A stretch of DNA of 64,000 nucleotides, taken from contig NZ_AUFV01000001.1 of the NCBI RefSeq assembly GCF_000426685.1, positions 186,001 through 250,000 of the forward strand, in the 5' to 3' direction. Positions 44,977 through 62,862 of this stretch are shown piece by piece. How positions within the stretch are numbered: position 1 is the first letter of the stretch; every line of letters starts with the position of its first letter. The stretch is from Solimonas flava DSM 18980 (lineage in GTDB: Bacteria > Pseudomonadota > Gammaproteobacteria > Nevskiales > Nevskiaceae). The position numbers and the translations under genes are program-made. The notes beneath the pieces are model-generated. The model was given only the letters and a program-made list of their open reading frames with translations, was not told the origin of the DNA and did no database searches.

Positions 44977-45007
44977 CTGGCGCCGCCAGTTGGCGATATT
45001 CGCCAAC
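44977..45007. promoter_or_regulatory. Tandem palindromes, candidate PspF enhancer sites
   Basis: CTGGCG-C-CGCCAG (44977-44989) directly abutting GTTGGCGA-TAT-TCGCCAAC (44989-45007). They lie about 110-140 bp upstream of the predicted psp start and end 18 bp before the pspF ATG. In E. coli two PspF sites sit similarly between pspF and pspA and also repress pspF. Confidence 0.55.
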
Positions 45008-45025
45008 ATCGAGCACAATGCCGCA

Positions 45026-46084
<1,059 letters not shown>

Positions 46085-46129: not shown

Positions 46130-46145
46130 TGGCACGGAATTGGCA
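46130..46145 (+). promoter_or_regulatory. Sigma-54 promoter of nasT-nasS
   Basis: TGGCACGGAATTGGCA: consensus -24 element, -12 GC in register; predicted start near 46156. It lies 45 bp past the pspF stop. Confidence 0.75.
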
Positions 46146-46164
46146 CACGAAAATCCCAGGGATT

Positions 46165-46323: not shown

Positions 46324-47019
46324 ATGGAGATGCGTACGCTGGATGAAGCCGAACCGTCGTGGGACAAGCGAGCTGCCGCCATGAACCGGCCGGCCGCCAG
46401 CCTGCGCGTGGTGCTCGTCGACGACGACGGCGCGCGCGCCGCGTTCGTGACGCAGGCGCTGCGCGCCGCCGGCCACGATGTGGTGGCACGCCTCTCCGCC
46501 AACGAAGACCTGCTCGCCGCCGTGCGGCGCGTGCGTCCGGACGTGATCCTCGTCGACATGGACAATCCGGCGCGCGACGTGCTCGATAACTGTGCGGCAG
46601 TGACCCAACAAGTGCCGCGTCCGATCATTTTCTTCGCCCGCGATTCCGATCCGGACACGATCTCGCGCGCGGTGCGCGCCGGCGTCTCCGCCTACATCGT
46701 CGACGGCATGGCGGCGCATCGCCTGAAGCCGATCCTCGATGTCGCGATCGCGCGTTTCCACGAACACCAGAAGCTGCGCAACGAACTCGACGAAATGCGC
46801 ACGCGTCTGGCCGACCGCCGCGACGTCGAGCGTGCCAAGGCGCTGCTGGTGCGCCTGCGCAAGCTCGACGAATCGCAGGCCTACACGCTGTTGCGCAAGA
46901 GCGCGATGGCGCGCCGCATCACCATCGGCGAGGCCGCACGCACCGTGCTCGCCGCCGCCGAACTGCTCGACGCCGGCCAGGAACCGCTGGGCGGTGCCGC
47001 GCCGGAGGAGTCTTCATGA
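46324..47019 (+). CDS. nasT: ANTAR-domain antiterminator NasT
   Basis: 231-aa regulator. The receiver-like domain (LRVVLVDDDGARAAFV, DVILVDMDNP) spans about residues 25-140, followed by a coiled coil and a C-terminal ANTAR domain (about 165-220: LADRRDVERAKALLV, DESQAYTLLRKSAM). NasT binds two-hairpin leader RNAs and lets transcription continue into nitrate assimilation genes when NasS releases it. ATGs at 46324 and 46330 share a GGGGAAG region; either could be used. It overlaps nasS by 4 bp (ATGA). Confidence 0.92.
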   Translation: MEMRTLDEAEPSWDKRAAAMNRPAASLRVVLVDDDGARAAFVTQALRAAGHDVVARLSANEDLLAAVRRVRPDVILVDMDNPARDVLDNCAAVTQQVPRPIIFFARDSDPDTISRAVRAGVSAYIVDGMAAHRLKPILDVAIARFHEHQKLRNELDEMRTRLADRRDVERAKALLVRLRKLDESQAYTLLRKSAMARRITIGEAARTVLAAAELLDAGQEPLGGAAPEESS

Positions 47020-48230
47020 ATCTGGTTCTGCCGTTTCGTCCCGAGATCAGCCACCTCACGGTCGGCTACATGCCGCTGCTCGATTCGGCGCCGCTGCTGT
47101 GGGCGGCGCACCGCGGCTATTTCCGCGCTGCCGGCCTCGACGTCGAACTGGTCCGCGAAGTGTCGTGGGCGAGCCTGCGCGACCGGCTCGCGTACGGCGC
47201 GCTCGACGCTGCGCAGTGCCTGGCGCCGATGCCGGTCGCGGCGACGCTCGGCGCCGACGGCGTCGGCGTGCCGATGGTCACCGGCCTGTGTCTCTCGCAG
47301 GGCGGCTCGGCGATCACCTTCTCGCGCACGATGGCCGATCGCATCGGCCTGCGCAGCGGCATGAGCGTGGTCGACAGCGCCGCCGCCGTCGCGCAGTACG
47401 TGCGCGGCGGCGGGCGCCTGCGTCTCGCGCACGTGTTCGCGTTCTCGATGCACCACTACCTGCTGCGCGACTGGCTCGCGCTCGGAGGGCTCGAAGGCGA
47501 TGTGCCCGGCATCGAATTCACCGTCGCGCCGCCGCCGCAGATGGTGCGCCTGCTCGAAAGCGGCGCGGTCGACGGCTTCTGCGTCGGCGAGCCGTGGAAC
47601 ACGGCCGCGGTCAAGGGCGGGCTCGGCTTCGTGGTGACGCCGACCAGCAACATCTGGGACGGCGGCGCCGAGAAGGTGCTCGGCGTCACCCGCGAATGGG
47701 CGCAGCAGTTCCCGCACACGCATCGCGCGCTGCTGGCCGCGGTGATGGCGGCGCTGCAGGAACTTTCCAGCCGCGACGTGACCCGCGAACTCGCCGCGCT
47801 GCTGCACCGCCTGCAGGTGCTGGCGGTGCCGGATTCCTGGGTCGAGGCGGTGCTGCGCGGCCAGGGCGTCGGCGCCGCGCCGCGCTTCACCAGCGGCCTG
47901 CAGGCGTTTCCGCGCCGCTCGCAGCTGATGTGGTGCGCGCTGCAGATGCTGCGCTGGCGGCAGTGGAGCCGGCCGTTGAGTCTTGCGCAGCTGACGTCCT
48001 CGGTTTGCGACGTCGCGGCGTTCTGCGACGCCGCGGCGACGCTCGATCTGCCGCTGCCGCTCGTCGATTCGATCCGCGAAGGGGCCGGCGCCGTCGCGCT
48101 CGGCGCCGACGGCGCGACCGTCGAATCGCGTTTCATCGACGGCGGCGAGCTCGACCCGGCCGACCCGGCCGCGTATCTCGCCGCGCGCGGCTGGAACCGC
48201 GAGGCGGCGCGCGCCGCGGTCGCCGGTTGA
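47016..48230 (+). CDS. nasS: Nitrate/nitrite sensor protein NasS
   Basis: 404-aa protein of the NrtA/CmpA periplasmic-binding family but without a signal peptide, as expected of the cytosolic sensor NasS. Typical parts are LTVGYMPLLDSAPLLWAAHRGYF, EVSWASLRDRLAYGALDAAQCLAPMP and VDGFCVGEPWNTAAV. NasS holds NasT inactive until nitrate or nitrite binds. Coupled to nasT by an ATGA overlap. Expected targets narK and nirB lie at 61.5-64 kb. Confidence 0.93.
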   Translation: MNLVLPFRPEISHLTVGYMPLLDSAPLLWAAHRGYFRAAGLDVELVREVSWASLRDRLAYGALDAAQCLAPMPVAATLGADGVGVPMVTGLCLSQGGSAITFSRTMADRIGLRSGMSVVDSAAAVAQYVRGGGRLRLAHVFAFSMHHYLLRDWLALGGLEGDVPGIEFTVAPPPQMVRLLESGAVDGFCVGEPWNTAAVKGGLGFVVTPTSNIWDGGAEKVLGVTREWAQQFPHTHRALLAAVMAALQELSSRDVTRELAALLHRLQVLAVPDSWVEAVLRGQGVGAAPRFTSGLQAFPRRSQLMWCALQMLRWRQWSRPLSLAQLTSSVCDVAAFCDAAATLDLPLPLVDSIREGAGAVALGADGATVESRFIDGGELDPADPAAYLAARGWNREAARAAVAG

Positions 48231-48369: not shown

Positions 48370-48579
48370 ATGTCGGAAGCCGCCCTGTTCCCGTTCATCG
48401 ATCCCGCCGTGCAGGTCATCGTCGTCTGCGCCGGCGGATTCGTCCTGCTGTTCTTCTGTTTCTCGCTGAGCGACGCCTGGCGCGCCCGCGAACGCCGCGT
48501 GCGGCGGACGCAGGCGCCGAGGCGCGCCGATCCGGTATCCCATGCCCAGGACTCCACCTCCGAACGCGAGCCGCACTGA
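48370..48579 (+). CDS. Small single-TM protein before the TPR cluster
   Basis: 69-aa protein with one membrane helix (VQVIVVCAGGFVLLFFCFSL) and a basic cytoplasmic tail (WRARERRVRRTQAPRR). ATG 48370 has AGGAG upstream with 8-bp spacing. Its end overlaps the next gene's start by 38 bp. I do not recognise a family. Confidence 0.5.
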   Translation: MSEAALFPFIDPAVQVIVVCAGGFVLLFFCFSLSDAWRARERRVRRTQAPRRADPVSHAQDSTSEREPH

Positions 48580-50221
48580 AGCGCGCCGGTCGCGCTGGCT
48601 GGCCGCGGCCGTCGCCGGCGCGCTGAGCCTGTGCGCCGGTCCCGCGGCGGCCGCCGCCGACACCCTGCCGGCGCTGACCCGCACCACGCTGGAGCTGGCC
48701 GCCGAGGTCGGACGCCGCAGCGCCGAGCCGCGACCGTCGCTGTACGCCGGCGTCGCCGCCGACGGTGTGCTGCTGCGCGAGCTGCGCGTGCAGCTCGACG
48801 ATGACGCAGCGCTGCGCTACCAGTTCAGCGAGGACGAGGCGCGTGCGCTCGCCGCCGGTGCGCTCAAGCCCTTGCTGGCGCTGGCGCCGGGCGCGCATCG
48901 GCTGCGCGCCGAGTTCGTCGCCCGCGCCGCCGGCGACAAGCCCGGCGCGACTCGCTACGCCGCCCAGCTCGACCGCCGCTTCACGGCCGACGACGCGCCG
49001 CTCGAACTGCGCTTCAGCGCCGGCAGCCTGCTGGCCGGCGCCAGCCTCGAACTGCAGGCCGCGGCTGGCGACGTCGCGCTGCGCGAAGTCGACTACCTGC
49101 TCGGCAGCGAGCGGCCGTTCGAGGCGGCGCTGCGTCTCGCCGTCAGCGGCCGCGACGACGCGCCGCGCCGCGACGCCGCCTGGCAAGCGCTCGGGCTGTC
49201 GGCCGCGGCGAGCGACGCGGCGGCGCCGGCCGAGCGCTACCGCCAGGCGCTCACCGCAGCCGACGGCGACGCGGCGCTGCGCGCGCTCGGCGACGCCGGC
49301 GCGCTGTCGCCGCAGGGGCTGCGTCTGCGCGATCTGGCCAACGTCACGCTCGGCTATCGCGAGCTGCGCGCCGGTCGCGGCGCGGCGGCGATCGAGCATT
49401 TCCAGCGCGTGCGCAGTCCAGGGCCGTATTCGAACGCGGCGATGCTCGGTCTCGGCTGGTGCTATCTGTGGCCGAGCGCCGAGGGCGCACGCCCGGGCGA
49501 CGCGCCGCTGCGGCCGGCCTCGGCCGACGCGCTGGCCGCGGCGCGGCGCCAGTCGCCGTTCCGCTACCTGCAGGCGGTGGCGAGCGGTGCGCGCGCCGAC
49601 GACCTGCGCCGCGCGCTGATTCCGTGGGCCGAGCTGCTCGGCCGCGATCCACTCGACCCGGCGGTGCAGGAAGGCATGCTGGCGATCCCGTACGCGCTCG
49701 ATCATCTCGGCGCGCACGAGCAGGCCGAGCGCCACTACGCGCGCGCGATCACCGCGCTCGAAGGCGCCCGCGCCACGCTCGCCGCGGCGCGCGCCGAGAT
49801 CGCCGACGGCCGCCTGCTCGCGGCGCTCGACGCGCGCGACGCCGACACCGCGAGCGGCTGGCCGCGCCAGCTGGTCGAACAGCGCGACGATGCCGAGGCG
49901 GTGCCGCTGCGGGTGTTCGCCGCCGCCGACGAGGCTGCCGCGCCGCTGCGCGAGTACCGCCAGCTGCGCAGCCTGACGCGCGCGCTCGACGCCGCCGCCG
50001 CGCAGCTCGCCGCGCACGACGGCGACGCTGCGCTGGCGGCGCGCATCAACGCGCAGCGCGCGCGGCTGGCGCGGGCCGGTGACGAGGCCGCGGCCCGCCT
50101 GCGCGCGGCGCTGCAGGCGGTGCTGCTGGGTCTCGACCGGCAGACCACGCGCGCGCTCGCCGAAGCCGAGTTCGCGCTTGCCCGCGTCTACGACCGCGAC
50201 CCGCACGGAGACGGCTCATGA
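48542..50221 (+). CDS. Secreted TPR-type helical repeat protein
   Basis: 559-aa protein, Ala/Arg-rich, with a signal peptide (RWLAAAVAGALSLCAGPAAAAA) and helical repeats in the middle, for example LGYRELRAGRGAAAIEHFQRVRSPGPYSNAAMLGLGW. No catalytic motif is seen. Its TGA overlaps the ATG of the next TPR gene. The cluster resembles TPR genes that accompany ExbB/ExbD-type motors (AglT/PglI-like in Myxococcus gliding loci), but no motor gene is in this window. Confidence 0.7.
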   Translation: MPRTPPPNASRTEARRSRWLAAAVAGALSLCAGPAAAAADTLPALTRTTLELAAEVGRRSAEPRPSLYAGVAADGVLLRELRVQLDDDAALRYQFSEDEARALAAGALKPLLALAPGAHRLRAEFVARAAGDKPGATRYAAQLDRRFTADDAPLELRFSAGSLLAGASLELQAAAGDVALREVDYLLGSERPFEAALRLAVSGRDDAPRRDAAWQALGLSAAASDAAAPAERYRQALTAADGDAALRALGDAGALSPQGLRLRDLANVTLGYRELRAGRGAAAIEHFQRVRSPGPYSNAAMLGLGWCYLWPSAEGARPGDAPLRPASADALAAARRQSPFRYLQAVASGARADDLRRALIPWAELLGRDPLDPAVQEGMLAIPYALDHLGAHEQAERHYARAITALEGARATLAAARAEIADGRLLAALDARDADTASGWPRQLVEQRDDAEAVPLRVFAAADEAAAPLREYRQLRSLTRALDAAAAQLAAHDGDAALAARINAQRARLARAGDEAAARLRAALQAVLLGLDRQTTRALAEAEFALARVYDRDPHGDGS

Positions 50222-53043
50222 TCCGCCGCATCGGTCTGGCCCTGCTGTGCCTGACGGCCGCGCTGCCGGCGCGCGCCGACGAGCCGCCGACGGTCGGCTC
50301 GGTGACGCGCAACAACGGCCTGCAGGAAAACGGCCGCTTCATCGTGCGCACGCCGGGCATCCTGCGCGTCGAGACCTCGGCGCCGGTCGCGCCCGATGCG
50401 GTGCGCGCGATCGCGCACTACGACCGCCTGATCGCGCTCGACGGCGTCGATCCGGCGCTGCGCGCCGAGGCGATGCGCCGCGCCGCCTATCTGCGCGTGC
50501 GCCGCTTCGACCAAGGACAGGCCGATGCCGCCGAGCTGCAGCAGGCGATCGCGCTCTACCGCCGCCTGCTCGCCGAGCATCCGCAGGACCCGGCCAACGA
50601 TCTGGCGCTGTACCAGCTGGCGCGTGCCGAGCAGATCGCCGGCGACAGCGAAGCGGCGATCACGGCGCTGCGCAGACTCGGTGCCGAGCATCCGCAATCG
50701 ACGCTGGTCGCCGACGCGCGCTTTCGCGCCGCCGAGCTGCTGTATCTGGCGCGCCGCTACGACGAGGCCGAACCGCTCTACGCCGCGGTCGTTGCGCAGG
50801 GCAGCGGCACGCCGTACTTCGTGCCGGCGCGCGGCAAGTACGGCTGGACGCTGTATCAGCAGGGCCGCTACGAGGCGGCGCTGCCGGTGCTGCTGGCGAT
50901 TCTCGACAGCGACCTGCCGCCCGGCACGCTGGAGGATCCGAAGACCGCGCTGGCCGCCGTCGACCGGCGCAAGGGCGATTTCGCCGCCGACGCGCTGAAC
51001 CTCGCCGGCCGCTCGTTCGCGGCGCTCGGCGGCGGCGCGGCGATGAACGCCTACTTCGCGCAGCGCGGCGACCCGCGCTTCTCGACGCTGCTCTATGCGG
51101 CGCTCGGCGGCGCGCTGCTCGAACAGCGCCGCTATCACGACGCCGCGCGCGTCTACGCCGCGTTCATCGAACGCCATCCGCAGCACCGCCTGGCGCCGGA
51201 CTTCCAGCAGCGCGTGATCGCCGCCTACGAAGGCGGCGGCTTCGCCGAGCCGACGATCGTCGCGCAGGAGGTGTATGTGGAGCGCTACAGCCCCGGCGCG
51301 CCGTACTGGAACGGCGCCGCGCCGCCCGCGGCCGTGCTCGATGCGCTGCGCGCCGATCTCGACGATCTCGGGCGCTGGCATCAGGCGCGCGCGCAGCGCC
51401 TGCCGGCGTCCGAAGCGGCGGCGCGCCAGGCCGGCTTTCTGGCGGCCGCCGAGTGGTATCGGCGCCGGCTCGCGCTGGAGGCGCCGGGCGAGACGGCCGC
51501 CGCCATCGCCATGCTGCGCGCCGACGCGCTCTACGACGGCGGGCGCACGCGCGAGGCGGCGCAGGCCTACGAGCAGGTCGCCTACGAACGGCCCAACGCG
51601 CGTTCGGCCGAGGCCGCGTATGCCGCCGTGCAGGCCTGGCAACGCCTGGGCACCGAACTGCCGCCGGCGCAGCGGCCGGAGGCGCTGCGTGCGTCGATCG
51701 CCGCGACGCAGCGCTTCGCCGACGCCTACGCCGAGCACCCGCAGTGGAGCGCGGCACTGACGCGCGGCGCGCAGGATCTCTACGAGATCGGCGACGAGGC
51801 GCAGGCGGTCGCGGTCGCGCAGCGCACGCTCACCGCCGGCCGCGCGACGCCGGCGCAGCGGGTCGAGCTCTATGGCGTGGTCGCCGCAGCGCAGTTCGCG
51901 CAGCGCGACTACGCGCAGGCCGAGACCGCCTACGTGGCGCTGCTGCGCGAGAGCGCGCTGCCGGCCGAGGCGCGCAGTGCGGCGTCCGAGCAGCTCGCCG
52001 CCGCCGTCTACCGCCAGGGCGAGGCGGCGCGCGCCGGCGGCGACCTGCGCGGCGCGGCGCGCCATTTCCAGCGCGTCGGCGCACTGGTGCCGGATGCGCG
52101 CATCCGCGCCACCGCCGAATACGACGCCGCCGCGGCGCTGATGGGCCTGCAGGACTGGCACGCCGCGGCGGCGGCGCTGGAGACTTTCCGCTCGCGCTAT
52201 CCGCAGCACGCCTTGAGCGCCGAGGCCGACAAGAAACTCGCCTACGCCTACGAGCAGGACGCGCAGCCGGCCGCCGCCGCCGAGGTCTATCGCCGCGTCG
52301 CCGCGCGCGACGGCGAGACGCCGGCACTGCGCCGCGACGCCGCCTGGCAGGCGGCACTGCTCTACGACCGCGCGCAGCAGACGGCCGCCGCGGTGCAGGC
52401 CTACGAGGCCTGCCTCGACGCCTATCCGCAGCCGCTCGAACGCAGTCTGCAGGCGCGCCGCCGGCTCGCCGATCTGGCCCGCGACGCGCAGGACGACGAG
52501 GGCCGCTACCGTCACTGGCTGCAGACGCTGGTCGCGGTCGACGCCGGCGCCGCGCACAACGCGCAAACCGCGCTGATGGCGGCGCAGGCCAATCTCGAAC
52601 TCGGCCGCCTCGACGCCGAAGCGGCGCGCCGCATCGCGCTGGCCGCGCCGATCGCCAGGAACCTGACGCGGCGCCAGCAGGCCAGCGAGACGGCGATCGC
52701 CGCGCTGCTGCGCGCCGCCGGCAGCGACGATGCCGAGATCACGACGGCGGCGACCTACGAGATCGGCGCGGTCTATCGCGACTTCGGCAGCGCGCTGCTC
52801 GACTCCGAGCGCCCGGCGAAGCTGCAGGGCGACGCGCTGGAGCAATACCAGATCCTGCTCGAGGAGCAGGCCGATCCGTTCGAGCAGAAATCGATCGAGG
52901 CGCATGCGGCCAATCTGCAGCGCGCGCGCCAGGGTCTGTGGAACGAGTGGATCCGGCGCAGCGCCGCGTCGCTGACCGAACTGGCGCCGGCCCGCTACGG
53001 CAAACACGAACTGCGCGAGGATCGCTATGAAGCGCTGCCCTGA
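50218..53043 (+). CDS. Large periplasmic TPR protein
   Basis: 941-aa protein with a signal peptide (MIRRIGLALLCLTAALPARADE) and many TPR-like helical pairs through its whole length, for example EAAITALRRLGAEHPQSTLVADARFRAAELLYLARRYDEAEPLY and ALETFRSRYPQHALSAEADKKLAYAYEQD. It is probably a scaffold in an envelope complex with its TPR neighbours. It overlaps the previous gene by 4 bp and the next by 17 bp, showing a tight operon. Confidence 0.8.
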   Translation: MIRRIGLALLCLTAALPARADEPPTVGSVTRNNGLQENGRFIVRTPGILRVETSAPVAPDAVRAIAHYDRLIALDGVDPALRAEAMRRAAYLRVRRFDQGQADAAELQQAIALYRRLLAEHPQDPANDLALYQLARAEQIAGDSEAAITALRRLGAEHPQSTLVADARFRAAELLYLARRYDEAEPLYAAVVAQGSGTPYFVPARGKYGWTLYQQGRYEAALPVLLAILDSDLPPGTLEDPKTALAAVDRRKGDFAADALNLAGRSFAALGGGAAMNAYFAQRGDPRFSTLLYAALGGALLEQRRYHDAARVYAAFIERHPQHRLAPDFQQRVIAAYEGGGFAEPTIVAQEVYVERYSPGAPYWNGAAPPAAVLDALRADLDDLGRWHQARAQRLPASEAAARQAGFLAAAEWYRRRLALEAPGETAAAIAMLRADALYDGGRTREAAQAYEQVAYERPNARSAEAAYAAVQAWQRLGTELPPAQRPEALRASIAATQRFADAYAEHPQWSAALTRGAQDLYEIGDEAQAVAVAQRTLTAGRATPAQRVELYGVVAAAQFAQRDYAQAETAYVALLRESALPAEARSAASEQLAAAVYRQGEAARAGGDLRGAARHFQRVGALVPDARIRATAEYDAAAALMGLQDWHAAAAALETFRSRYPQHALSAEADKKLAYAYEQDAQPAAAAEVYRRVAARDGETPALRRDAAWQAALLYDRAQQTAAAVQAYEACLDAYPQPLERSLQARRRLADLARDAQDDEGRYRHWLQTLVAVDAGAAHNAQTALMAAQANLELGRLDAEAARRIALAAPIARNLTRRQQASETAIAALLRAAGSDDAEITTAATYEIGAVYRDFGSALLDSERPAKLQGDALEQYQILLEEQADPFEQKSIEAHAANLQRARQGLWNEWIRRSAASLTELAPARYGKHELREDRYEALP

Positions 53044-53686
53044 TGCCACTGCCGCTCTTGCCGCCCTGCTGACGGGCGCGCTGCTCGCCGCCTGCGCGAG
53101 CCAGAGTCCGGTCCCGACGCCAACGCGCGCGCGCGCCCTGCCGCCGCCGGCGGCAGCCGCGCCGGTCGATCCCGACAAGGCCGATCCGCAGCAGCGCTTC
53201 GCCGCCGCGCTGCAGCTGATGCGGGAAGGACGGCGCGACGAGGCGATCACCGTCCTGCAGGTGCTGACCAGCGATTTCCCGCAGTACTCGGGGCCGTGGA
53301 CCGATCTCGGCATCCTCTATGCGCAGCTGCGCCGGCCGCGCGAGGCCGGCGACGCGTTCGACAGGGCGGTGCGCGCCAATCCCGACAACGCCGTCGCCTG
53401 GAACGCGCGCGGCGTGCTCTACCGCGAAGGCGGTGACGCCGCGCGTGCCGAGCAGTGCTACCGGCGCGCGCTGGCGGCGCAGCCGGACTACGCCAAGGCG
53501 CATTACAACCTCGCGATCCTCTACGACCTGACGCTGCGCCGGCCGCAGGACGCGCTCGCGCATTACCGCCAGTACCAGCAGCTCGCCGGCGACGAGGCGC
53601 AGCCGATGGTCGCCGTGTGGATACGCGAACTCGAATCGCGCACCATCGCCGCCGCCGGCGGCGCGCCGGCCGGAGCGCAGAAATGA
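53027..53686 (+). CDS. TPR lipoprotein
   Basis: 219-aa protein with a lipobox (LLAAC, about residues 19-23) and three or more TPR units (GPWTDLGILYAQLRRPREAGDAFDRAVRANPDNAVAWNARGVLYREGGDAARAEQCYRRALAAQPDYAKAHYNLAILYDL pattern). It is probably anchored in the outer membrane as the third TPR member of the cluster. Its TGA overlaps the ATG of the following small gene. Confidence 0.85.
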   Translation: MKRCPDATAALAALLTGALLAACASQSPVPTPTRARALPPPAAAAPVDPDKADPQQRFAAALQLMREGRRDEAITVLQVLTSDFPQYSGPWTDLGILYAQLRRPREAGDAFDRAVRANPDNAVAWNARGVLYREGGDAARAEQCYRRALAAQPDYAKAHYNLAILYDLTLRRPQDALAHYRQYQQLAGDEAQPMVAVWIRELESRTIAAAGGAPAGAQK

Positions 53687-54082: not shown

Positions 54083-55084
54083 TCAGCGCTCGACGCAGCG
54101 AATGCGCACGCCGGGTTGTGCGCGCAGTCGCGGCGCGAGCGCCGGCGTCGCCAGCAGTTCGCCGTCGTCGGTGAGCGCGAGCGCCTGACCGACGCCGAGG
54201 CGCGCGGCGAGCGCCCGCCAGCCGGCGGCGCCGGCGACGAACAGCGCGCCGCCGGCGGCATCGGCGAAGGCGGCGTCGGCGTGCACGACGGTCAGGCTGC
54301 GCAGGCCACGGCACGGCCAGCCGCTGCGCGGATCGAGCAGGTGCGCGTAGCGCGTGCCGCGATGCTCGAAATAGCGCTGGTCGTCGCCGTGGGTGATGAC
54401 CGCTTCATCGCAGGCGTCCATCGTCGCCAGCAGGCGCGGCGCGTCGGGGCGGCGCGGATCGCGGATGCCGATGCGCCAGGCGCGTTCGTTGCGACGGCCG
54501 CGCACGGCGAGGTTGCCGCCGGCGTCGATGCTGATATTGGCGTAGCCGCGCGACTGCAGGCGTTCGAGCATGCAGTCGACGATATAGCCCTTGCCGATGC
54601 CGCCGAAATCCCAGGCGGTGTCCGGTGCCGGGCCGTAGTGCTCGCCGCCGTCGTAGGCCGGCGCCGCGCGCAGCGCCGTCAGCAACGCATCGATCTGCGT
54701 CGCGGCCGGCGGCTCGGCGCGCAGCCGCGCGATGTCGTCGAAGCCCCAGAGGCGCACGAGCGCGCCGATGCGCGGCTCGAACAGGCCGTCGCTGTGTTCA
54801 CGGATCTGCCAGGCGCGGCGGAACAGCGGGCGCAGCGCGGGCGGCACCGCGACGCGCTCGCCGGCGGCGACGCGACGATTGAACTGCGCCAGCGCGCCCT
54901 GGCCCCAGGCCCAGGCATCGCGGCCGAAATCGTCGATCTCGCGCTCGATCGCGCTGATCGCCGCATCGGCCGTGACCCGGCCGCGCGGCTCGGTCATCAC
55001 GGTGACGGTAACGAATGTGCCCATCGCCATGAAGCGACGCTGCAACGGCGATGGCCGGCGTAGCCAGCCCATGGTCGGAATCAT
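54083..55084 (-). CDS. apbE: FAD:protein FMN transferase (ApbE)
   Basis: 333-aa ApbE-family enzyme that moves FMN from FAD onto a Thr or Ser of target proteins. Motifs are FGGIGKGYIVD, SIDAGGNLAVRG and YAHLLDPRSGWP. The usual lipoprotein signal is not evident, so its compartment is uncertain. A likely substrate, the FMN-binding protein with an SGAT site, lies three genes upstream. The start is ATG 55084 or 55072; neither has a strong ribosome site. Confidence 0.88.
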   Translation of the reverse strand: MIPTMGWLRRPSPLQRRFMAMGTFVTVTVMTEPRGRVTADAAISAIEREIDDFGRDAWAWGQGALAQFNRRVAAGERVAVPPALRPLFRRAWQIREHSDGLFEPRIGALVRLWGFDDIARLRAEPPAATQIDALLTALRAAPAYDGGEHYGPAPDTAWDFGGIGKGYIVDCMLERLQSRGYANISIDAGGNLAVRGRRNERAWRIGIRDPRRPDAPRLLATMDACDEAVITHGDDQRYFEHRGTRYAHLLDPRSGWPCRGLRSLTVVHADAAFADAAGGALFVAGAAGWRALAARLGVGQALALTDDGELLATPALAPRLRAQPGVRIRCVER

Positions 55085-55156
55085 GTTGAGCGGGAAGCGG
55101 GCAGGGCTGGCGGGCGGCCGCGATCCGGCCGCCCGCCGCTGCCGCGCTTCATCCAC

Positions 55157-55444
55157 TCATTTCGGCGGATAGTATTCGTCCTGGGTGAGCTGGCCGTCAT
55201 GATTGGTATCGCGGCGCTCGAAGCGCTTGTCGAGTTGCGAGCCCGGCACGACTTCGTCGCGCTGGATGATGCCGTCGCCGTTCTTGTCGACCCACAGCTC
55301 GCTGGCGGGAGCGGTGCCGCCGGGCGCGCCGACCGAGGCCGAGCCCGGCGCGTCGGTGCTGTGCCCGGGCAGCGTGCCGGTTCCCGCCGAGGCGGCACCG
55401 GCAACGGCGAACAATGCGATGAACAGCAGGTGCGACCGATCCAT
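55157..55444 (-). CDS. Secreted EF-hand calcium-binding protein
   Basis: 95-aa protein with a signal peptide (LLFIALFAVAGAASA) and two EF-hand loops, DKNGDGIIQRDE and DTNHDGQLTQDE, each with the acidic positions intact. ATG 55444 has AGGGAG upstream. It lies between the PepSY protein and apbE genes; its partner is unknown. Confidence 0.85.
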   Translation of the reverse strand: MDRSHLLFIALFAVAGAASAGTGTLPGHSTDAPGSASVGAPGGTAPASELWVDKNGDGIIQRDEVVPGSQLDKRFERRDTNHDGQLTQDEYYPPK

Positions 55445-55568: not shown

Positions 55569-56459
55569 TCAGCGCGGCGCCAGACGCTTGCGGTTCTGGC
55601 GGATGCGCCACCACATCCAGATGCCGCTGACCGCCAGCACCATCGCGACCAGGCCGATCAGCGTGATCAGCCACGCCCCGATCGGTCCGAACAGGCGGCC
55701 GCTGTGCAGATCGATCAGCACCTGCTCGACGATCACGCGCGGCTTGGCATACGGCAGTGCCTTCTCGCGTTCGGCCTCGGGCAGGGCCTGCGGCTGCGAC
55801 CAGTCGACTTCGGTCGGCGAGACCGGCGCCCAACTGTTGCCCTCGTCGCCGCTCTGGTAGGCGTCGAGGTCCTGCACGGCGATGATCTGCGGGTCGCGCT
55901 TGAGCACGCCGACGCGGCGGATCGTCGACACCGGCAGGATCGGCGGCGTCAGCTCGTCGACGCGCTCGCCGTCCGGGCGCAGCAGCACCAGGCTCGCCGG
56001 CCCCGCGACGTACAGCAGCGGACTGCTCTTGCCGGCGACGACGAAGCCGAGCGGCGCCGCGATCTGCGTGGCCAGCGGCTTGCCGTCGATCAGCGTGTAG
56101 TCGTTGGTCGCGCTGAGCCAGTGCCCGCCGGCGCTGAAGCCGCTCTGCGGCGGCTCGGCATGCAGGCCGTACATCTGCATCAGCCACGGCCAGTCGACGC
56201 GCGCGGTGTCGAGGCCGAGTTCGACGCTGCGCGTCAGCAGCACGCCGGTGCAGGCCAGCCAGATCAGGAACGCGAAGGCGACGAGGCCGGCGCGCGAATG
56301 CCATTCGCGCAGCAGCGCGATGATGTTGCGCTTGGGCTTCGGCGCCTTGTGCGGCGGGCGCGCGCTGCGCCAGCCGCGCAGGCGCGGCAGCAGCTTCTGC
56401 CGCGCCGGCGCCGGATGCGGGGACAAGGGCTCCTTCATCGCCACGTGTGCCGGGTTCAT
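55569..56459 (-). CDS. PepSY-associated TM helix protein
   Basis: 296-aa membrane protein with one helix near residues 57-77 (SRAGLVAFAFLIWLACTGVLL) and another near the C-terminus (IGAWLITLIGLVAMVLAVSGIWMWW), between which lies a periplasmic region of about 180 residues. His residues next to the helices (EWHSRAG, LIDLHSGR) are candidates for haem ligation, as in PepSY-type membrane reductases linked to flavinylated proteins. It lies 5 bp after the FMN-binding protein gene, so the two likely work together. Confidence 0.8.
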   Translation of the reverse strand: MNPAHVAMKEPLSPHPAPARQKLLPRLRGWRSARPPHKAPKPKRNIIALLREWHSRAGLVAFAFLIWLACTGVLLTRSVELGLDTARVDWPWLMQMYGLHAEPPQSGFSAGGHWLSATNDYTLIDGKPLATQIAAPLGFVVAGKSSPLLYVAGPASLVLLRPDGERVDELTPPILPVSTIRRVGVLKRDPQIIAVQDLDAYQSGDEGNSWAPVSPTEVDWSQPQALPEAEREKALPYAKPRVIVEQVLIDLHSGRLFGPIGAWLITLIGLVAMVLAVSGIWMWWRIRQNRKRLAPR

Positions 56460-56464: not shown

Positions 56465-57097
56465 TCAGGCGGTCAGCGAGTCGAACACCAGCGCGGTGCG
56501 GGCCATGCGCTGCATCATCTTCACCGACAGCGTCGCGCCGGAGATGTTGTCGACCTTCTTGTCGATGCCGCCGCCGGCGGCTCTGGCGCCGATCAGCTGC
56601 TGCAGGAAGCTCGGCTGTGCGATCTGTTCGCCGCGCGATTCGCGGTAGATCAGCACGCGCGCGTGCTCGATCGCGCCGCCGGCGACGACGAAGCCGCAGG
56701 TCGTCGGCACGTAACCCTCTTTGCCGATGTCGTCGAAGATCCAGGCGCTGCGGCCGTCGGCCTTCCAGTAGCGCAGGCGCGCCTGCGGATACGGACGGCC
56801 GAACACGGCGCCGATCTGCGCCTGCTTGGCGGCGTCGAGATCGAGGACGGTGGGGGGCGGGGGAGTGCCGGGTGCGAACGCCTCGGCGATGAAGGCGTCG
56901 GGCGTCTGGAAAGTCTTGTAGATGTCGATCGCCTCGGCCTTGCGCGAGGCCAGGCCGAGCAGCGGCAGCGCGGCCAGCGCCTGCAGCAGGCGGCGGCGAT
57001 CAAAAAGAGCCCCGGCGGACGAAGCCGCGCGGGGATTTGGGAAGTCGGGACTGGCGGTCGTGAGGCGGGCGGGACGCTTTGCTTTATGAATTGTCAC
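56465..57097 (-). CDS. Exported FMN-binding domain protein (ApbE substrate)
   Basis: 210-aa protein. The N-terminus has RRRLLQALAALPLLGLA, compatible with a Tat-type signal. The FMN-binding domain ends with DNISGATLS (183-191), in which Thr189 is the expected site of covalent FMN attachment by ApbE. Related domains occur in NqrC, RnfG and NosR. Together with the downstream PepSY and apbE genes it forms a flavin electron-transfer module outside the cytoplasm. Confidence 0.88.
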   Translation of the reverse strand: MTIHKAKRPARLTTASPDFPNPRAASSAGALFDRRRLLQALAALPLLGLASRKAEAIDIYKTFQTPDAFIAEAFAPGTPPPPTVLDLDAAKQAQIGAVFGRPYPQARLRYWKADGRSAWIFDDIGKEGYVPTTCGFVVAGGAIEHARVLIYRESRGEQIAQPSFLQQLIGARAAGGGIDKKVDNISGATLSVKMMQRMARTALVFDSLTA

Positions 57098-57223: not shown

Positions 57224-57694
57224 TTACTTGGTGACGATCACGCGCGTGAACGGCGCCAGCGCGGCGATCAGGTGGTTGCAGCTGTAGTACGGGATCTGGT
57301 TGCGCTCGCAGGCGTTGTACGCGGCTTCGACGACGGCGTTGAACTGCGTCATCGTGATGCCGAGGTCGGCGTGCGCGGCGCTCATGCTGGCGCCCTGGTA
57401 CTCGACCTTGGCGCCGAGCACCATCTGCTCCAACTGCGTGTTCAGCGCGATCTGGCGCTCGACGTTGCCGAACTCCTTGAAGATGTAGTTGATGCGGTTG
57501 TCGAGCATGATGTAGTAGAACAGCGACTCGACCCAGTTGTGGACGCCGTACTCGCCGCCGAAGCTGGCGACTGCCGAGCTGGGGATGCCGAGGATCGGTT
57601 TGGTCTTCTGCTCGGCGGCGAAGGCCGGTTGCAGGGAGGCGATCATCAGCGCCGTGCCGGCCGCGATCGCGAGTTTTGCCTTGCTGACTTTCAT
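57224..57694 (-). CDS. Secreted group 1 truncated haemoglobin
   Basis: 156-aa protein with a signal peptide (LAIAAGTALMIASLQPAFA) and a truncated-globin core: DNRINYIFKEF, LEQMVLGAKVEY and AHADLGITMTQFNAVV, in which the His is the expected proximal haem ligand. Export is unusual for this globin class. Gas binding (NO, O2) or redox with the nearby flavoprotein is possible. It lies 25 bp after the DUF3034 gene. Confidence 0.82.
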   Translation of the reverse strand: MKVSKAKLAIAAGTALMIASLQPAFAAEQKTKPILGIPSSAVASFGGEYGVHNWVESLFYYIMLDNRINYIFKEFGNVERQIALNTQLEQMVLGAKVEYQGASMSAAHADLGITMTQFNAVVEAAYNACERNQIPYYSCNHLIAALAPFTRVIVTK

Positions 57695-57719: not shown

Positions 57720-58772
57720 TCAGAACGTCAGGTGGGTGGAGAAGTAGAAGCCGTTGTTGTCCTGCGACACCGAGATGTTGCCGAGCATCAGGTAGGCGAC
57801 GACGAACGAGATGTTCTTGTTCGGCGCGTAGGCCATGAAGATGTCGTACCAGTCGCCTTCCTTCTTCTGCTGCAGCGTGTTCGACAGGCCGCCGAGGCCG
57901 ATGCTGCCGAGGATGTCGGTGATGCTGGTCAGATCGAGACCGGCGACCTTGACGCTCTTGCCGTCGAGATTGTTGCCGTGCTGCTGCCACTCGGCGCCGA
58001 TCGCCGTGTTCTTGGCCACCAGGTGCGCGATCGACACTTCCCAGCGCACTTCCTTCTTCGAGTCGCAGTCGCCCTGGGTGAGCAGGCGGCTGTCGCAGGA
58101 GCCGAAGCCGGTCAGGCCGATTTCGTTGGCGGCGGTGTAGCGCGCCGCGACGTTGACCAGCGTGCTGATCGGGAAGAAGATCTTGGTCGCCGCGATATAG
58201 GCTTCCCAGTCCTTGGTCTTGTCGGCGCCGAGCGTGTGGACCAGCGCCTCGCTGTGGTTCTTCTTGTACAGGCCGCCGATCGAAACCTGCGGAATCCAGC
58301 TGTCCGAGGTGTAGACCGCGTCGCCGAACAGGCGCAGCTTGGCGCCGAAGACGTCCATCTGCAGCGTCGAGTTCCACGGGTCGGTGCCGCCGCCGATGCC
58401 GAGCGTGTTGAGCAGCAGCGCCACGGTGTCGAGGTTCGACAGGTTCAGCGACAGCTTGTGCGAGGCGTACGACAGTTCGAGGCGATCGTAGAAACCGATG
58501 TTCACGCCGAACACCGAGTCCTGCAGGGCCGGCACGTTCACGTAGGTGAAGCCGGCGCTGGCATTGATGCCGTCGCGCGTCTCGTAGCCGCTGATCGTCG
58601 CCCACGGCACCGCGCCGCCGCCGCCGGCGCCGTCGACCGTGAACACGCCGCCGGTCAGCAGCACCTTGCCGTTGTTGTACCAGTCGGCGTGCGCGGCGCC
58701 GCTGGCCAGTCCCGCCAGCAGCAGCGCTACGCCACGCAGGCCCCGCCATTTGTTCGTGTGTGCCCGATTCAT
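57720..58772 (-). CDS. DUF3034 family outer-membrane-type protein
   Basis: 350-aa protein with a signal peptide (GVALLLAGLASGAAHA) and an amphipathic beta pattern ending in F (GFYFSTHLTF), consistent with an outer-membrane barrel. DUF3034 has no known function. ATG 58772 has AAAAGGAG upstream. It leads the globin-FMN-PepSY-EF-hand-apbE series. The strong terminator at 58886-58929 lies upstream, between it and the sigma-54 promoter at 59016-59031. Confidence 0.8.
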   Translation of the reverse strand: MNRAHTNKWRGLRGVALLLAGLASGAAHADWYNNGKVLLTGGVFTVDGAGGGGAVPWATISGYETRDGINASAGFTYVNVPALQDSVFGVNIGFYDRLELSYASHKLSLNLSNLDTVALLLNTLGIGGGTDPWNSTLQMDVFGAKLRLFGDAVYTSDSWIPQVSIGGLYKKNHSEALVHTLGADKTKDWEAYIAATKIFFPISTLVNVAARYTAANEIGLTGFGSCDSRLLTQGDCDSKKEVRWEVSIAHLVAKNTAIGAEWQQHGNNLDGKSVKVAGLDLTSITDILGSIGLGGLSNTLQQKKEGDWYDIFMAYAPNKNISFVVAYLMLGNISVSQDNNGFYFSTHLTF

Positions 58773-58885
58773 TTGCCCCAACTCCTTTTGTTTGAATGAA
58801 AAGCAAAGCCTGAAATGACCGCGCCCTTGCGTGGCGCGTGAGTCAGCCGACGTGCTCCGTCGGTACCGCTGCGGACATCGCGAAC

Positions 58886-58929
58886 AAAAAAAAACGTCCA
58901 CGTGCTGGGGTCTCCAGCGACGTGGACGT
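58886..58929 (-). terminator. Strong intrinsic terminator, minus strand
   Basis: 10-bp stem (58894-58903 with 58920-58929), one bulged base, then a 5-bp GCTGG/CCAGC stem, followed by nine T residues (plus-strand A9 at 58886-58894). It ends about 114 bp before the DUF3034 start codon. Confidence 0.9.
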
Positions 58930-59005
58930 CGATGTCCGGTTTGAAATCGAGCGGCTTTGCCCGACTCCCTTTGACGCGTCTCGTGTGCCTATCCGTGGCG
59001 CACGG
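58886..59005 (-). ncRNA. Candidate sigma-54-dependent small RNA or attenuated leader (left)
   Basis: From the predicted start of the sigma-54 promoter (59016-59031) to the T9 terminator, about 120 nt. No credible open frame. It is either a free small RNA or the leader of the DUF3034 operon controlled by readthrough. Confidence 0.5.
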
Positions 59006-59015
59006 TGGAACGAAA

Positions 59016-59031
59016 CGCAAAGCCTGTGCCA
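59016..59031 (-). promoter_or_regulatory. Sigma-54 promoter, leftward
   Basis: Minus strand TGGCACAGGCTTTGCG: -24 TGGCACA, -12 TTGC, correct spacing. Predicted start near 59005. Confidence 0.8.
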
Positions 59032-59530
59032 ATCATTGCGAAACGATGGCAGCCGCACGCCGGTCCGGGCCGCGAGCCGCGTCGGTCACGCGGCCTTGAA
59101 AACGCGTCTCTGCGTAGGAGAAATCGACACGTGTCGCGATGCCGGACGACAGCGCGCGCGCACGCTTGCGATGCGCGCGCGTGCATCGCATACGCGCGAC
59201 AAGCCTCGCCAAGTGCCGGTGCGCGCTGCCGCATGCTGGCGCAGAAATGTTTCGTGCTGGGGCGCTGCGCACCGCGCTGTGGCGATGCGCGCGCCGCATG
59301 CAGCTCGCTTCGCGCGGCGGCGCATCGTGTTCCGCGCGCGTGTGGAATGCGTGCGCGCCCGCGATCGTGAGCGCGAGCGCGATGCGCGAGGAGGCGCGGC
59401 GCCGCGCCGCGGCACGTGATCGCGCTCCTTAAATAGCGGAGCGTGATCGACGCGCACTTGCGGCGCACCGGGTCGTGCCGCTGCGACGCTGCGTCGCGCG
59501 CTCGCATCGGCAAGACCTGCATTCGGTTTG
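59032..59530. other. Gene-free block rich in alternating GC/CG steps
   Basis: About 500 bp between two divergent sigma-54 promoters. Frames on both strands give Arg/Ala-rich translations without family features, so I call no gene. It is dense in GCGC runs and inverted repeats, for example TGCGATGC...GCATCGCA (59167-59190). Confidence 0.5.
59418..59448. promoter_or_regulatory. Inverted repeat, candidate enhancer site
   Basis: GATCGCGCTCC and GGAGCGTGATC, 11-bp arms with one mismatch around a 9-bp AT-rich spacer. It lies about 110-140 bp upstream of the start predicted for the promoter at 59531-59546, a usual distance for sigma-54 activators. Confidence 0.4.
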
Positions 59531-59546
59531 TGGCATAACGCTTGCA
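59531..59546 (+). promoter_or_regulatory. Sigma-54 promoter, rightward
   Basis: TGGCATAACGCTTGCA: -24 TGGCATA, -12 TTGCA, correct spacing. Predicted start near 59557. Confidence 0.8.
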
Positions 59547-59556
59547 GCGCATTTCG

Positions 59557-59650
59557 CGCGCGTGATAAGAATCAGCGCACGAGCAGGCATCGTCGCCCGT
59601 TCACGGACATCGAAGTCCACGCCGGTCCCCCGACCGGCGTGGACTTTTTT
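59557..59650 (+). ncRNA. Candidate sigma-54-dependent small RNA or attenuated leader (right)
   Basis: About 94 nt from the predicted start to the T6 tract. It includes a hairpin TGAT-AAGA-ATCA (59563-59574) and the terminator. Either an independent small RNA or a leader of the OmpA-cupredoxin gene, which begins 107 bp further on. Confidence 0.5.
59615..59650 (+). terminator. Strong intrinsic terminator, plus strand
   Basis: Perfect 13-bp stem GTCCACGCCGGTC/GACCGGCGTGGAC (59615-59627, 59632-59644), CCCC loop, then six T residues. Its base sequence GTCCACG matches that of the left terminator. Confidence 0.95.
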
Positions 59651-59757
59651 GTTGCGCCAACGAAAAGCGTGCGATGCGTGGCTCGCGCATCGCGTCGGCT
59701 CACGCGGCGCGGCCGCGGCGTCGCTCGTCCACCACAAGAGCGCTGCAAGGGGATTGC

Positions 59758-61182
59758 ATGAAGACGTTAAGAAAAGGATTTCGACGCGGCCTGGTGCCGA
59801 TGGCGGTGCTGACATCGTTCGCGGCGCCGGCCGCGCAGGCGCAGGAGAGCTGGCTCGACGACACCTATGTCGCGCCGATGGCGTCGTACTCGATCGCCGA
59901 CAGCGATCGCCATACCGACGATGCGTTCGGCGGTACGCTGGGTCTGGGCTGGCGGCTGTCCGATCGCGTCGAAGTCGAACTGCTCGGCACCTATCTGAAG
60001 TACAAGGCCGACGACGGCAACTCCAACGAGCCCTGCGGTCTGCTGCGGCGCTGCACGCCTTACGAGGATCAGGAAGTGTCCGGCGGTGGCGTCGGCACCA
60101 ACCTGTTCCTGACGCCTTACACCTTCGGCGGCCTGTTCCTGCATCTCGACGTGATGGCCGCGAGCAATGCCGTCTACCACGCCGGTCTGGGCCTCGACCT
60201 GCCTCTCAACGACCGCGGCTTCGCGGTGCGCGCCGAGGCGCTGTGGCAGTCGAACTACGACTGGGATTTGAAGGAGCCGGTCTTCAACCTCGGCCTGCGC
60301 ATTCCGCTCGGTCCGCATCGCGAGCCCAAGGTCTATCAGCCGGCCGAGCCGGTGCAGGTCGTCGAGCCGGTCGCGCCGCCGCCACCACCGCCGCCACCGC
60401 CGGCGCCGTGCACGATGGGCGCCGACGGCAGCGTCGACCTCAGCGGCTGCAAGACCGGCGACACGGTCGTGCTGCGCGGCGTGAACTTCGAGTTCGACAA
60501 GTGGAATCTCACGCTCAACGCCAAGGGTCTGCTCGACATGGTCGTGGCCGCGCTGCAGAAGCGTGCCGATATCAAGGTCGAGATCGACGGTCATACCGAC
60601 AGCAAGGGCTCCGACAGCTACAACCTGAAGCTCTCGGATCGACGCGCCAAATCGGTGATGGACTATCTGCTCGCCAAGGGCGTCGCGCCGTCGCGGTTGT
60701 CGTCGAAGGGCTTCGGCGAATCGATGCCGATCGCCGACAACACGAGCGATGAAGGTCGCGCGATCAATCGTCGCGTCGAACTCAAGGTCGTCGAATCGAG
60801 CCAGGGTGCGGTGACGGTCGAGCAGGCCGGCCAGCCGGCGCAGCGCTATGCGCCGCCCGCCGCGCCGCACGAGCACGAGGCGCCGATGCCGATGGCGACA
60901 CCGGCCCCGGCGCCGGCACCGGTCGCGGCGGCCACCGGCGGCACGACGGTGACGATCGAGAACATGGCGTTCGGTCCCGGCGTGCTGACGGTCGCCGCCG
61001 GCAGCACCGTGACGTTCCTGAACAACGACGGCTCGAATCACATCGTGCGCTTCGCCGACGGTCAGCAGAGCCCGCGTCTGCCGATGGGCCGCACGTGGAC
61101 GCGGACCTTCACGGCGCCGGGCGAGTATCCGTACGTGTGCATGATTCACCCGACGATGAGCGGCAAGATCATCGTGCAGTAA
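59758..61182 (+). CDS. OmpA-like barrel/peptidoglycan-binding protein fused to a cupredoxin
   Basis: 474-aa protein. It has a signal peptide (to about residue 28), an OmpA-type beta-barrel (about 30-185) and a proline linker with nine consecutive prolines (207-215). An OmpA C-terminal peptidoglycan-binding domain follows (about 238-345: VNFEFDKWNLT, VEIDGHTDSKGSDSYN, RAINRRVEL). After a Pro/Ala linker comes a plastocyanin-like domain (395-474) with type 1 copper ligands H428, C461, H464 and M467 (PYVCMIHPTMSG). The fusion suggests a copper electron carrier fixed to the outer membrane and cell wall. ATG 59758 has AAGGGG upstream. It faces the flavin/globin operon across the gene-free block. 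Confidence 0.88.
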   Translation: MKTLRKGFRRGLVPMAVLTSFAAPAAQAQESWLDDTYVAPMASYSIADSDRHTDDAFGGTLGLGWRLSDRVEVELLGTYLKYKADDGNSNEPCGLLRRCTPYEDQEVSGGGVGTNLFLTPYTFGGLFLHLDVMAASNAVYHAGLGLDLPLNDRGFAVRAEALWQSNYDWDLKEPVFNLGLRIPLGPHREPKVYQPAEPVQVVEPVAPPPPPPPPPAPCTMGADGSVDLSGCKTGDTVVLRGVNFEFDKWNLTLNAKGLLDMVVAALQKRADIKVEIDGHTDSKGSDSYNLKLSDRRAKSVMDYLLAKGVAPSRLSSKGFGESMPIADNTSDEGRAINRRVELKVVESSQGAVTVEQAGQPAQRYAPPAAPHEHEAPMPMATPAPAPAPVAAATGGTTVTIENMAFGPGVLTVAAGSTVTFLNNDGSNHIVRFADGQQSPRLPMGRTWTRTFTAPGEYPYVCMIHPTMSGKIIVQ

Positions 61183-61402: not shown

Positions 61403-61418
61403 TGGCATACGCTTTGCG
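61403..61418 (+). promoter_or_regulatory. Sigma-54 promoter of narK-nirB
   Basis: TGGCATACGCTTTGCG: -24 TGGCATA, -12 TTGC in register; predicted start near 61429, the first base region of the leader hairpin. Confidence 0.85.
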
Positions 61419-61427
61419 ATATGCCAG

Positions 61428-61477
61428 GCAGGATCAGCGACGATCTTGCATTACCGTCTGCGGTCAACGACGCCCGC
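61428..61477 (+). promoter_or_regulatory. ANTAR-type two-hairpin leader of narK
   Basis: Hairpin 1: arms GCAGGATC/GATCTTGC (8 bp, one wobble) with hexaloop AGCGAC (61428-61449). Hairpin 2: arms GCGGTC/GCCCGC (one T/C mismatch) with hexaloop AACGAC (61460-61477), the same loop as in the nasT leader. Both loops have A1 and G4. Hairpin 2 competes with ACCG-TCTG-CGGT (61453-61464). A T-rich tract (GTTTCTTCTTTT) follows, but I see no clean terminator stem. Confidence 0.65.
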
Positions 61478-61506
61478 GCCCCGTTTCTTCTTTTGGGAGC
61501 ACGAGC

Positions 61507-62862
61507 ATGTCGAAGGCCACATCCATTCAGCTGTTCAGTCTGTCCAGCCCGCAGATGCGGGCGTTCCATCTTTCCTGGCTGGCGTTTTTCGTCTGTTTCT
61601 TCGCCTGGTTCGCGGTCGCACCGCTGATGCCGGTCATCAAGGGCGAGTTCGGTCTGAGCAAGGACCAGATCGCCAACATCAACATCGCCGCGGTCGCGAT
61701 CACCATCCTCACGCGTCTCATCATCGGGCCGCTGTGCGACAAGTACGGTCCGCGCAAGGTCTACACCGCGCTGCTCGCGATCGGCGCGATTCCGGTACTC
61801 GGCATCGCGCTGGTGAAGAGCTATGAAGGCTTCCTGTTCTTCCGCCTGCTGATCGGTTCGATCGGCGCCAGCTTCGTCATCACGCAGTACCACACCTCGG
61901 TGATGTTCGCGCCGAACGTGGTCGGTACCGCCAATGCGGCGTCGGCCGGCTGGGGCAACGCCGGCGGCGGCGTCACGCAGACGGTCATGCCGCTGGTGCT
62001 CGCCGCGGTCATCAGCCTCGGCGTCGACCATGTGTACGGCTGGCGCGTGTCGATGCTCGTGCCCGGCGTGCTGATGCTGATCGTCGCGGTGCTGTACTGG
62101 CGCTACACGCAGGACTGCCCGGACGGCAACTACCAGGAACTGCGCGCGCGCGGCGTCGAGATCGAGAGCGGCAAGAAAGGCGGCTGGGCGGTATTCAAGG
62201 CGGCCGCGGCGAACTACCGCGTGTGGATGCTGTTCGTCACCTACGGCGCCTGCTTCGGCCTCGAACTGTTCGTCCACAACGTCGCGGCGAGCTACTACGT
62301 CGACAAGTTCGATCTCGACCTCAAGACCGCGGGCCTGGCGGCCGGCAGCTTCGGCCTGCTCGCCCTGTTCGCGCGCGCGCTCGGCGGCTGGATCTCCGAC
62401 CGCGTCGCCAGCCGCAAGGGCCTCGATGCGCGCACGCTGCTGCTGTTCGCGCTGATGCTGGGCGAGGGCATCGGCCTGCTGTGGTTCTCGACGACCACCT
62501 CGGTGACGATGGCGGTGGTCGCGATGCTGACCTTCGGCCTTTGCACGCACATGGCCTGCGGCGCGACCTATGCGCTGGTGCCGTTCATCGACCGCGCTTC
62601 GCTCGGCGGCGTCGCCGGCATCATCGGCGCGGGCGGCAACGTCGGCGCGGTCGCGGCCGGCTTCGTGATGAAGGGCGTCGGCGACGTGCAGCAGACCTTC
62701 GCCTGGCTCGGCGGCTTCGTCGTGCTGTCCTCGCTGTGCGCGATCGCGGTGCGCTTCAGTGCCACGCACAAGGCGCGCGAGAACACGCTCTACGAGGAAG
62801 CGCTCGCGCAGCGCCAGGCGCTGCGGCAGTCGACGGCGGGAGCGGTACCGGAAGCGGCCTGA
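61507..62862 (+). CDS. Nitrate/nitrite MFS transporter (NarK/NasA family)
   Basis: 451-aa, 12-TM major facilitator. The NNP-family signature is visible twice: GWGNAGGGVTQTVMPLV and GIIGAGGNVGAVAAG. LTRLIIGPLCDKYGPRK is the loop 2-3 motif, with the substrate-binding Arg in the TM2 region. It imports nitrate for assimilation. ATG 61507 has GGGAG upstream with 7-bp spacing. It is followed 38 bp later by nirB, so both are probably on the NasT-controlled transcript. Confidence 0.93.
   Translation: MSKATSIQLFSLSSPQMRAFHLSWLAFFVCFFAWFAVAPLMPVIKGEFGLSKDQIANINIAAVAITILTRLIIGPLCDKYGPRKVYTALLAIGAIPVLGIALVKSYEGFLFFRLLIGSIGASFVITQYHTSVMFAPNVVGTANAASAGWGNAGGGVTQTVMPLVLAAVISLGVDHVYGWRVSMLVPGVLMLIVAVLYWRYTQDCPDGNYQELRARGVEIESGKKGGWAVFKAAAANYRVWMLFVTYGACFGLELFVHNVAASYYVDKFDLDLKTAGLAAGSFGLLALFARALGGWISDRVASRKGLDARTLLLFALMLGEGIGLLWFSTTTSVTMAVVAMLTFGLCTHMACGATYALVPFIDRASLGGVAGIIGAGGNVGAVAAGFVMKGVGDVQQTFAWLGGFVVLSSLCAIAVRFSATHKARENTLYEEALAQRQALRQSTAGAVPEAA

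Follow-up and report, generated by a model that had tools for sequence, protein, structure and literature searches.

Two divergent units at positions 58773-59757 of the 64,000-nucleotide stretch of Solimonas flava DSM 18980 that we analyzed (the window) are, judging from sequence comparison, very probably antiterminator leaders of the ANTAR/NasT kind that are transcribed from sigma-54 promoters. We favor this reading because both units carry ANTAR hairpins, because a NasT gene lies nearby, and because matches to a covariance model of the leaders co-occur with ANTAR genes in the order and in the class. A preliminary description of this DNA had offered attenuated leaders of a flavin/globin operon and an OmpA-cupredoxin gene as one of two readings; our analysis supports that reading and points specifically to antitermination of the ANTAR/NasT type.

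Boxes, hairpins and terminators of the two units

As listed in Table 1, each unit combines a GG-N10-GC box of the sigma-54 type with an intrinsic terminator, and the genome encodes sigma-54 (two RpoN genes) as well as one NtrC above the model's cut-off. The left box is kept at the same place in five other Solimonas genomes. The preliminary description had located both boxes and both terminators correctly (the left terminator spans 58886-58928), and its view that no open frame fits seems fair, as only mechanical ORFs cross the units. It had also recognized that the stems are built on GTCCACG/CGTGGAC, and the stretch common to both units proved longer still (GGACATCGAnGTCCACG); the motif is shared because the 3′ arm of the second hairpin, P2, doubles as the 5′ arm of the terminator. 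What its list of elements lacked were the P1 and P2 hairpins, the NasT gene within the window, and the nasTS and narK leaders. Elsewhere in the genome, three places similar to GGACATCGAnGTCCACG (L003, L007, and L008) were all found to be without the P1/P2/terminator arrangement.

Table 1. Positions of leader elements and genes in the window, with leaders before globin genes in relatives
Feature	Position	Strand	Details
Left-unit sigma-54-type box	59016-59031	-	TGGCACAGGCTTTGCG, GG-N10-GC
Left-unit P1 hairpin	58943-58968	-	loop AAAGCC (A1, G4); folds as drawn
Left-unit P2 hairpin	58924-58937	-	GGAC[AUCGAC]GUCC; 3′ arm is terminator 5′ arm
Left-unit intrinsic terminator	58886-58928	-	run of nine U
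Right-unit sigma-54-type box	59531-59546	+	TGGCATAACGCTTGCA, GG-N10-GC
Right-unit P1 hairpin	59581-59602	+	loop AUCGUC (A1, G4); one A.C stem mismatch
Right-unit P2 hairpin	59605-59618	+	GGAC[AUCGAA]GUCC; 3′ arm is terminator 5′ arm
Right-unit intrinsic terminator	59615-59650	+	
nasTS leader	46130-46271	+	box 46130-46145, P1 46165-46180 (AACGAC), P2 46229-46242 (AAGGGC)
nasTS leader terminator-like hairpin	46236-46271	+	long P1-P2 linker upstream
NasT (putative), receiver + ANTAR domain	46324-47019	+	only ANTAR gene found in genome
NasS-like NMT1_2 protein	47016-48230	+	overlaps nasT
ApbE (FMN transferase)	54083-55156	-	
Small EF-hand protein	55157-55444	-	
PepSY_TM protein	55569-56459	-	
FMN_bind protein	56465-57097	-	
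Group 1 truncated haemoglobin	57224-57694	-	signal-peptide-like N-terminus (by eye)
DUF3034 gene (PF11231)	57720-58772	-	first gene past left leader
OmpA-cupredoxin gene	59758-61182	+	first gene past right leader
narK leader	61403-61500	+	box 61403-61418, P1 61428-61449 (AGCGAC), ribosome-binding site about 61495
narK leader P2	61460-61477	+	AACGAC, one mismatch; identified by eye
NarK nitrate/nitrite transporter	61507-62862	+	TIGR00886
ANTAR-type leaders before globin genes (relatives)	L144:4435-4506, L164:138-211, L142:840-912		

Sigma-54-type boxes alone are unremarkable in this GC-rich window, which holds 12 sites with at most two mismatches and shows no excess of looser matches (84 against 117.7 expected). 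A generic terminator scan of 58000-60600 likewise returned 3 sites against 1.8 expected and missed the left terminator. Folding of the two leaders was compared with dinucleotide shuffles and gave z scores of -6.2 and -6.6, with 0 of 200 shuffles equally good. When box, P1, P2, and overlapping terminator were required together, the window yielded two matches, exactly the two units, and 1.67 Mb of shuffled sequence yielded none; across 556 kb comprising the window and stretches from relatives, the combined pattern was found in 47 rows. The hairpin/terminator scan run without the box also returned only the two units in the window, and nothing in 10 shuffled windows. Taken together, the boxes, hairpins, and terminators are far beyond chance.

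PMC3369931 describes the ANTAR target RNA as a pair of small hairpins whose loops carry A1 and G4 and of which the second cannot form together with the terminator. Both units have two hairpins of at least 3 bp with six-base loops, A1 and G4 are present in all four loops, and P2 overlaps and excludes the terminator through its 3′ arm, GUCC. To this description, the SELEX work reported in PMC7496416 added a C:G closing pair of the loops, which we found at P1 in 27/27 aligned leaders and at P2 in 19/27, the remaining 8 P2 loops being closed by U-G. P1 and P2 are separated by linkers of 5 nt (left unit), 2 nt (right unit), and about 48 nt (nasTS leader); for eut ANTAR RNAs, linkers of 5-12 nt are reported to work and those of 3 and 14 nt to fail (Ramesh et al. 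2012, PMC3369931), and the working range of NasT may differ from that of eut.

NasT and two further leaders in the window

The nasT gene lies within the window, ∼12 kb from the two units. We use the name NasT for its product on the strength of its domains and the neighboring gene, as the receiver + ANTAR gene adjoins that of an NMT1-type nitrate sensor, an arrangement that suggests a NasS-NasT pair; no NasT-named model is among the matches listed (25 of 38 NCBIfam matches). Upstream of nasT, the box and A1/G4 loops of the nasTS leader are kept in 4 of the 6 nasT upstream regions fetched (L126-L129) and absent from L130 and L131. Its U run was seen in the window and L126 only, and L126 is nearly identical to the window.

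The narK leader has no U-run terminator in the window. Its box was present in all six Solimonas genomes seen and absent in L083 and L089, and for P1 a scripted search identified the hairpin in the window as well as in L043, L045, and L078 (plus duplicates), with L044 added by eye; in L084 the loop starts with G, and P2 was identified by eye throughout the relatives. Downstream of narK, nirB- and nasA-like genes follow in the stretch L010. For ANTAR RNAs lacking a terminator, Ramesh et al. suggested an action on translation (PMC3369931), and by analogy the narK leader may act on translation. The covariance model, which includes the terminator, missed both the nasTS and narK leaders, and these rest on the separate comparison given here.

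Other genes of the region were noted in passing. A PspF-like sigma-54 activator gene (44990-46084, Sigma54_activat) adjoins nasTS, with PspA- and PspC-like ORFs recognized by eye beside it (region 43151-46084), and the interval from nasTS to apbE (48542-53686) encodes a secreted 559-aa protein without a Pfam match and two TPR proteins.

Leaders and ANTAR genes in the order and class

DUF3034 was found in 45/85 genomes of the order, and in 39 of the 46 DUF3034 stretches fetched it occurs together with homologues of the haemoglobin, FMN-bind, and PepSY genes, several of the other 7 stretches being cut by contig ends. Starting from 31 unique leaders of the scan and excluding L050 and three L091 rows as odd, we aligned 27 leaders, all preselected for hairpins and box. 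Pairing in this alignment reached 94.2% for P1 and P2, where 16 cells showed changes on both sides against 5.4 in shuffled controls, and 98.4% for the terminator, with 10 such cells against 2.6. These counts lean toward pairing because the 27 rows had been selected for it. Covariation was located in P1 and the terminator, while P2 hardly varied, and the covariance model was built on P1 and the terminator. In the Solimonas flava genome it recovered the two units at E values of 5e-12 and 1.1e-8, the next matches reaching only 0.27 and 0.53.

Across the order, the model matched in 44/85 genomes and ANTAR genes were present in 63/85; matches occurred in 43/63 genomes with an ANTAR gene versus 1/22 without, and that one genome is 84% complete. 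We compiled 116 distinct model places in the 44 genomes (82 fetched sources), to which 8 places outside this list would be added, one each in G008, G009, G010, G015, G021, G022, G029, and G036. The gene that follows is DUF3034 in 42 cases, OmpA-cupredoxin in 30, and one for a secreted protein ∼600 aa long in 11; a transglycosylase (PF01464), an NrtA-like protein, a globin (PF00042), and FMN-bind follow in 3 cases each, and NirB-like in 2. The downstream genes of the other 19 are unassigned, some through selection of the wrong ORF frame. Among the 45 genomes with DUF3034, 4 had no model match. The preliminary description had proposed looking for conservation of the block in relatives, and the divergent DUF3034/OmpA-cupredoxin leader pair is retained in 9 genomes. 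In G045, DUF3034 and its leader occur twice, 12 kb apart and with identical scores (L051 and L052), and G008 likewise has DUF3034 in two equal copies. Proteins of a different kind, secreted and with LGSLPL-type leucine/glycine/serine/proline repeats, lie behind the leaders L137:1552-1630 and L145:3005-3084.

For a test of the box that was not circular, we used the 81 places that had not been selected through the sigma-54 scan. A box score of at least 16 was found at 79 of these and of at least 18 at 77, compared to 475 and 55, respectively, of 3760 random positions. When two A1/G4 hairpins were strictly required, only 74/122 model matches passed, versus 29/2440 random places. Upstream of the relatives' leaders, NtrC-like GCAC-N7-GTGC sites with at most one mismatch were present in 53/88 regions versus 12, 20, and 18 in shuffles, and other GCAC/GTGC spacings gave 24-35 of 88 versus 12-23 shuffled. 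Between the two promoters of the window itself there is one such site with 1 mismatch, not above chance.

In a set spread across the class Gammaproteobacteria, the model matched in 15/273 other genomes, all 15 of which have an ANTAR gene. With Solimonas flava itself counted, this makes 16/274 genomes with a match, 16/16 of them with an ANTAR gene, against 87/274 overall (hypergeometric p 4e-9), and 14 of the 17 places outside its own genome lie within 2 kb of the ANTAR gene. By similarity to representatives, the gene following these 17 places was labeled NrtA-like at 12, NirB-like at 3, and a porin of the Alginate_exp type at the other 2. A model trained on leaders of envelope genes thus finds classical nitrate-assimilation leaders. 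Box scores of at least 16 were seen at 10/17 places and not at the other 7, so the pairing of leader and sigma-54 box is strongest in this order. The class set included 15 genomes with DUF3034, of which only G000 and G109 had model matches.

These distributions bear on the alternatives. Since the leaders hold both P1 and P2 and number up to 9 model matches per genome in the order, the terminated RNAs could be decoys that titrate NasT, in the way that ANTAR-binding small RNAs titrate the regulator in eut systems. The terminator consumes P2, however, and the fold of the full leader leaves only P1, and we therefore consider decoys very unlikely; on the antitermination reading, terminated leaders would be present as short RNAs, probably by-products. 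The other reading in the preliminary description, two sigma-54-dependent small RNAs of the NrsZ/CrcZ kind that act in trans and have the terminators as their true 3′ ends, fared poorly. It draws on the strong promoter-like box and the terminator lying about 100-130 nt apart, and on a weak likeness of the minus strand of the right terminator to Pseudomonas P6 RNA (Rfam, E 0.006, 19.5 bits versus a gathering score of 50), but no Rfam family reached its gathering score for either unit, and in relatives the element recurs directly before same-strand genes, with ANTAR hairpins and in genomes with ANTAR genes, which makes such RNAs highly improbable. The terminators could also serve a ligand riboswitch or leader-peptide (ribosome-dependent) attenuation, and mechanical ORFs do cross both units, but we give these readings almost no credence: no Rfam riboswitch matched, and neither the two-hairpin pattern nor the tie to ANTAR genes would be expected.

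Targets, proposed control and known systems

The small protein called a globin in the preliminary description does match group 1 truncated haemoglobins: it has no Pfam match, but PDB 3aq7 was recovered at E 1.5e-14 with a profile built from 10 homologues. The DUF3034 protein of the window is 99% identical to the copy in S. variicoloris DSM 15731, and an AlphaFold model of DUF3034 (4 sequences) was uninformative (mean pLDDT 28). By sequence, the haemoglobin, FMN-bind, PepSY, and ApbE proteins resemble the PepSY-like flavinylated electron chains described in PMC8238504, which likewise bring together ApbE, a PepSY protein, and an exported flavin-binding protein. The typical substrate there is DUF2271, however, and the main text of that paper is without the words "globin" or "DUF3034."

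Under NasT-type antitermination, control would probably work as an AND gate with nitrogen limitation and nitrate as its two inputs. Nitrogen limitation would cause an activator, probably NtrC, to fire both sigma-54 promoters. Without nitrate, NasS would hold NasT and RNA polymerase would stop about 105-130 nt into the transcript. When nitrate is present, the NasT set free would bind the two A1/G4 loops and keep P2, in which state the terminator could not form; transcription would then run on into the DUF3034-haemoglobin-FMN-PepSY-ApbE operon on one side and into the OmpA-cupredoxin gene on the other. If the leaders block transcription unless NasT is bound, then nitrate and nitrogen shortage jointly would switch on envelope redox genes, among them the gene of the apparently exported haemoglobin.

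The mechanism and the family are already known, and the targets are new. In Klebsiella oxytoca, initiation at nasF is under Ntr control and is combined with nitrate-dependent ANTAR antitermination (PMC5424462, PMC7496416), and the nasF leader also has two A1/G4 hairpins with a C:G closing pair; its regulator is a single protein, NasR (NIT + ANTAR), whereas Solimonas appears to use NasT (receiver + ANTAR) with NasS, and directs it at envelope redox genes. In Paracoccus denitrificans, according to PMC3795266, NasT is bound by NasS until nitrate or nitrite is present and binds the nasA leader RNA, and nasT is under NtrC-type control (PMC5424462), a scheme like the one proposed here for Solimonas. 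The Paracoccus target is the nas operon; in Solimonas the OmpA-cupredoxin gene and the DUF3034/haemoglobin/flavin operon would be further targets. Earlier work had already predicted sigma-54 promoters for genes of the nasT type (PMC12316311).

The NasT-linked narK-bjgb-flp-nasC operon of Bradyrhizobium joins nitrate assimilation to an NO-removing haemoglobin and a flavoprotein, and is described as removing NO that arises in nitrate assimilation (PMC4724949). Bjgb belongs to the single-domain haemoglobins of Hmp type and has Flp as its partner, whereas the Solimonas haemoglobin is of truncated group 1, apparently exported, and accompanied by a membrane flavin chain. A parallel to bjgb is offered by three Solimonas genomes in which an ANTAR-type leader precedes the gene of a single-domain globin (the representative tested matched PF00042). 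The direction of NasT control can differ, since narK-bjgb-flp was reported as higher in a Bradyrhizobium nasT mutant under denitrification (PMC6759348).

We hypothesize that the left operon has a role in NO handling. A wider proposal, which we put forward tentatively and with more doubt than confidence, is that nitrate assimilation in Solimonas and its relatives is coupled, through a multi-leader sigma-54 and NasT AND gate, to an extracytoplasmic electron chain for NO or nitrite handling, in which the PepSY protein of the membrane and the flavinylated FMN-binding protein would supply the exported group 1 truncated haemoglobin and the OmpA-anchored cupredoxin. If true, the Bjgb/Flp system of Bradyrhizobium, which is cytoplasmic, would have its envelope counterpart in this chain. 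Our searches of the open-licence literature showed no link of DUF3034, an apparently exported truncated haemoglobin, or the PepSY/ApbE module to nitrate, and the leaders would provide a regulatory handle, nitrate together with nitrogen limitation, on all three. They also indicate that an ANTAR regulon can comprise as many as 9 leaders within a single genome. Because nearly every leader in this order has a sigma-54 box, membership of the regulon can be read from sequence.
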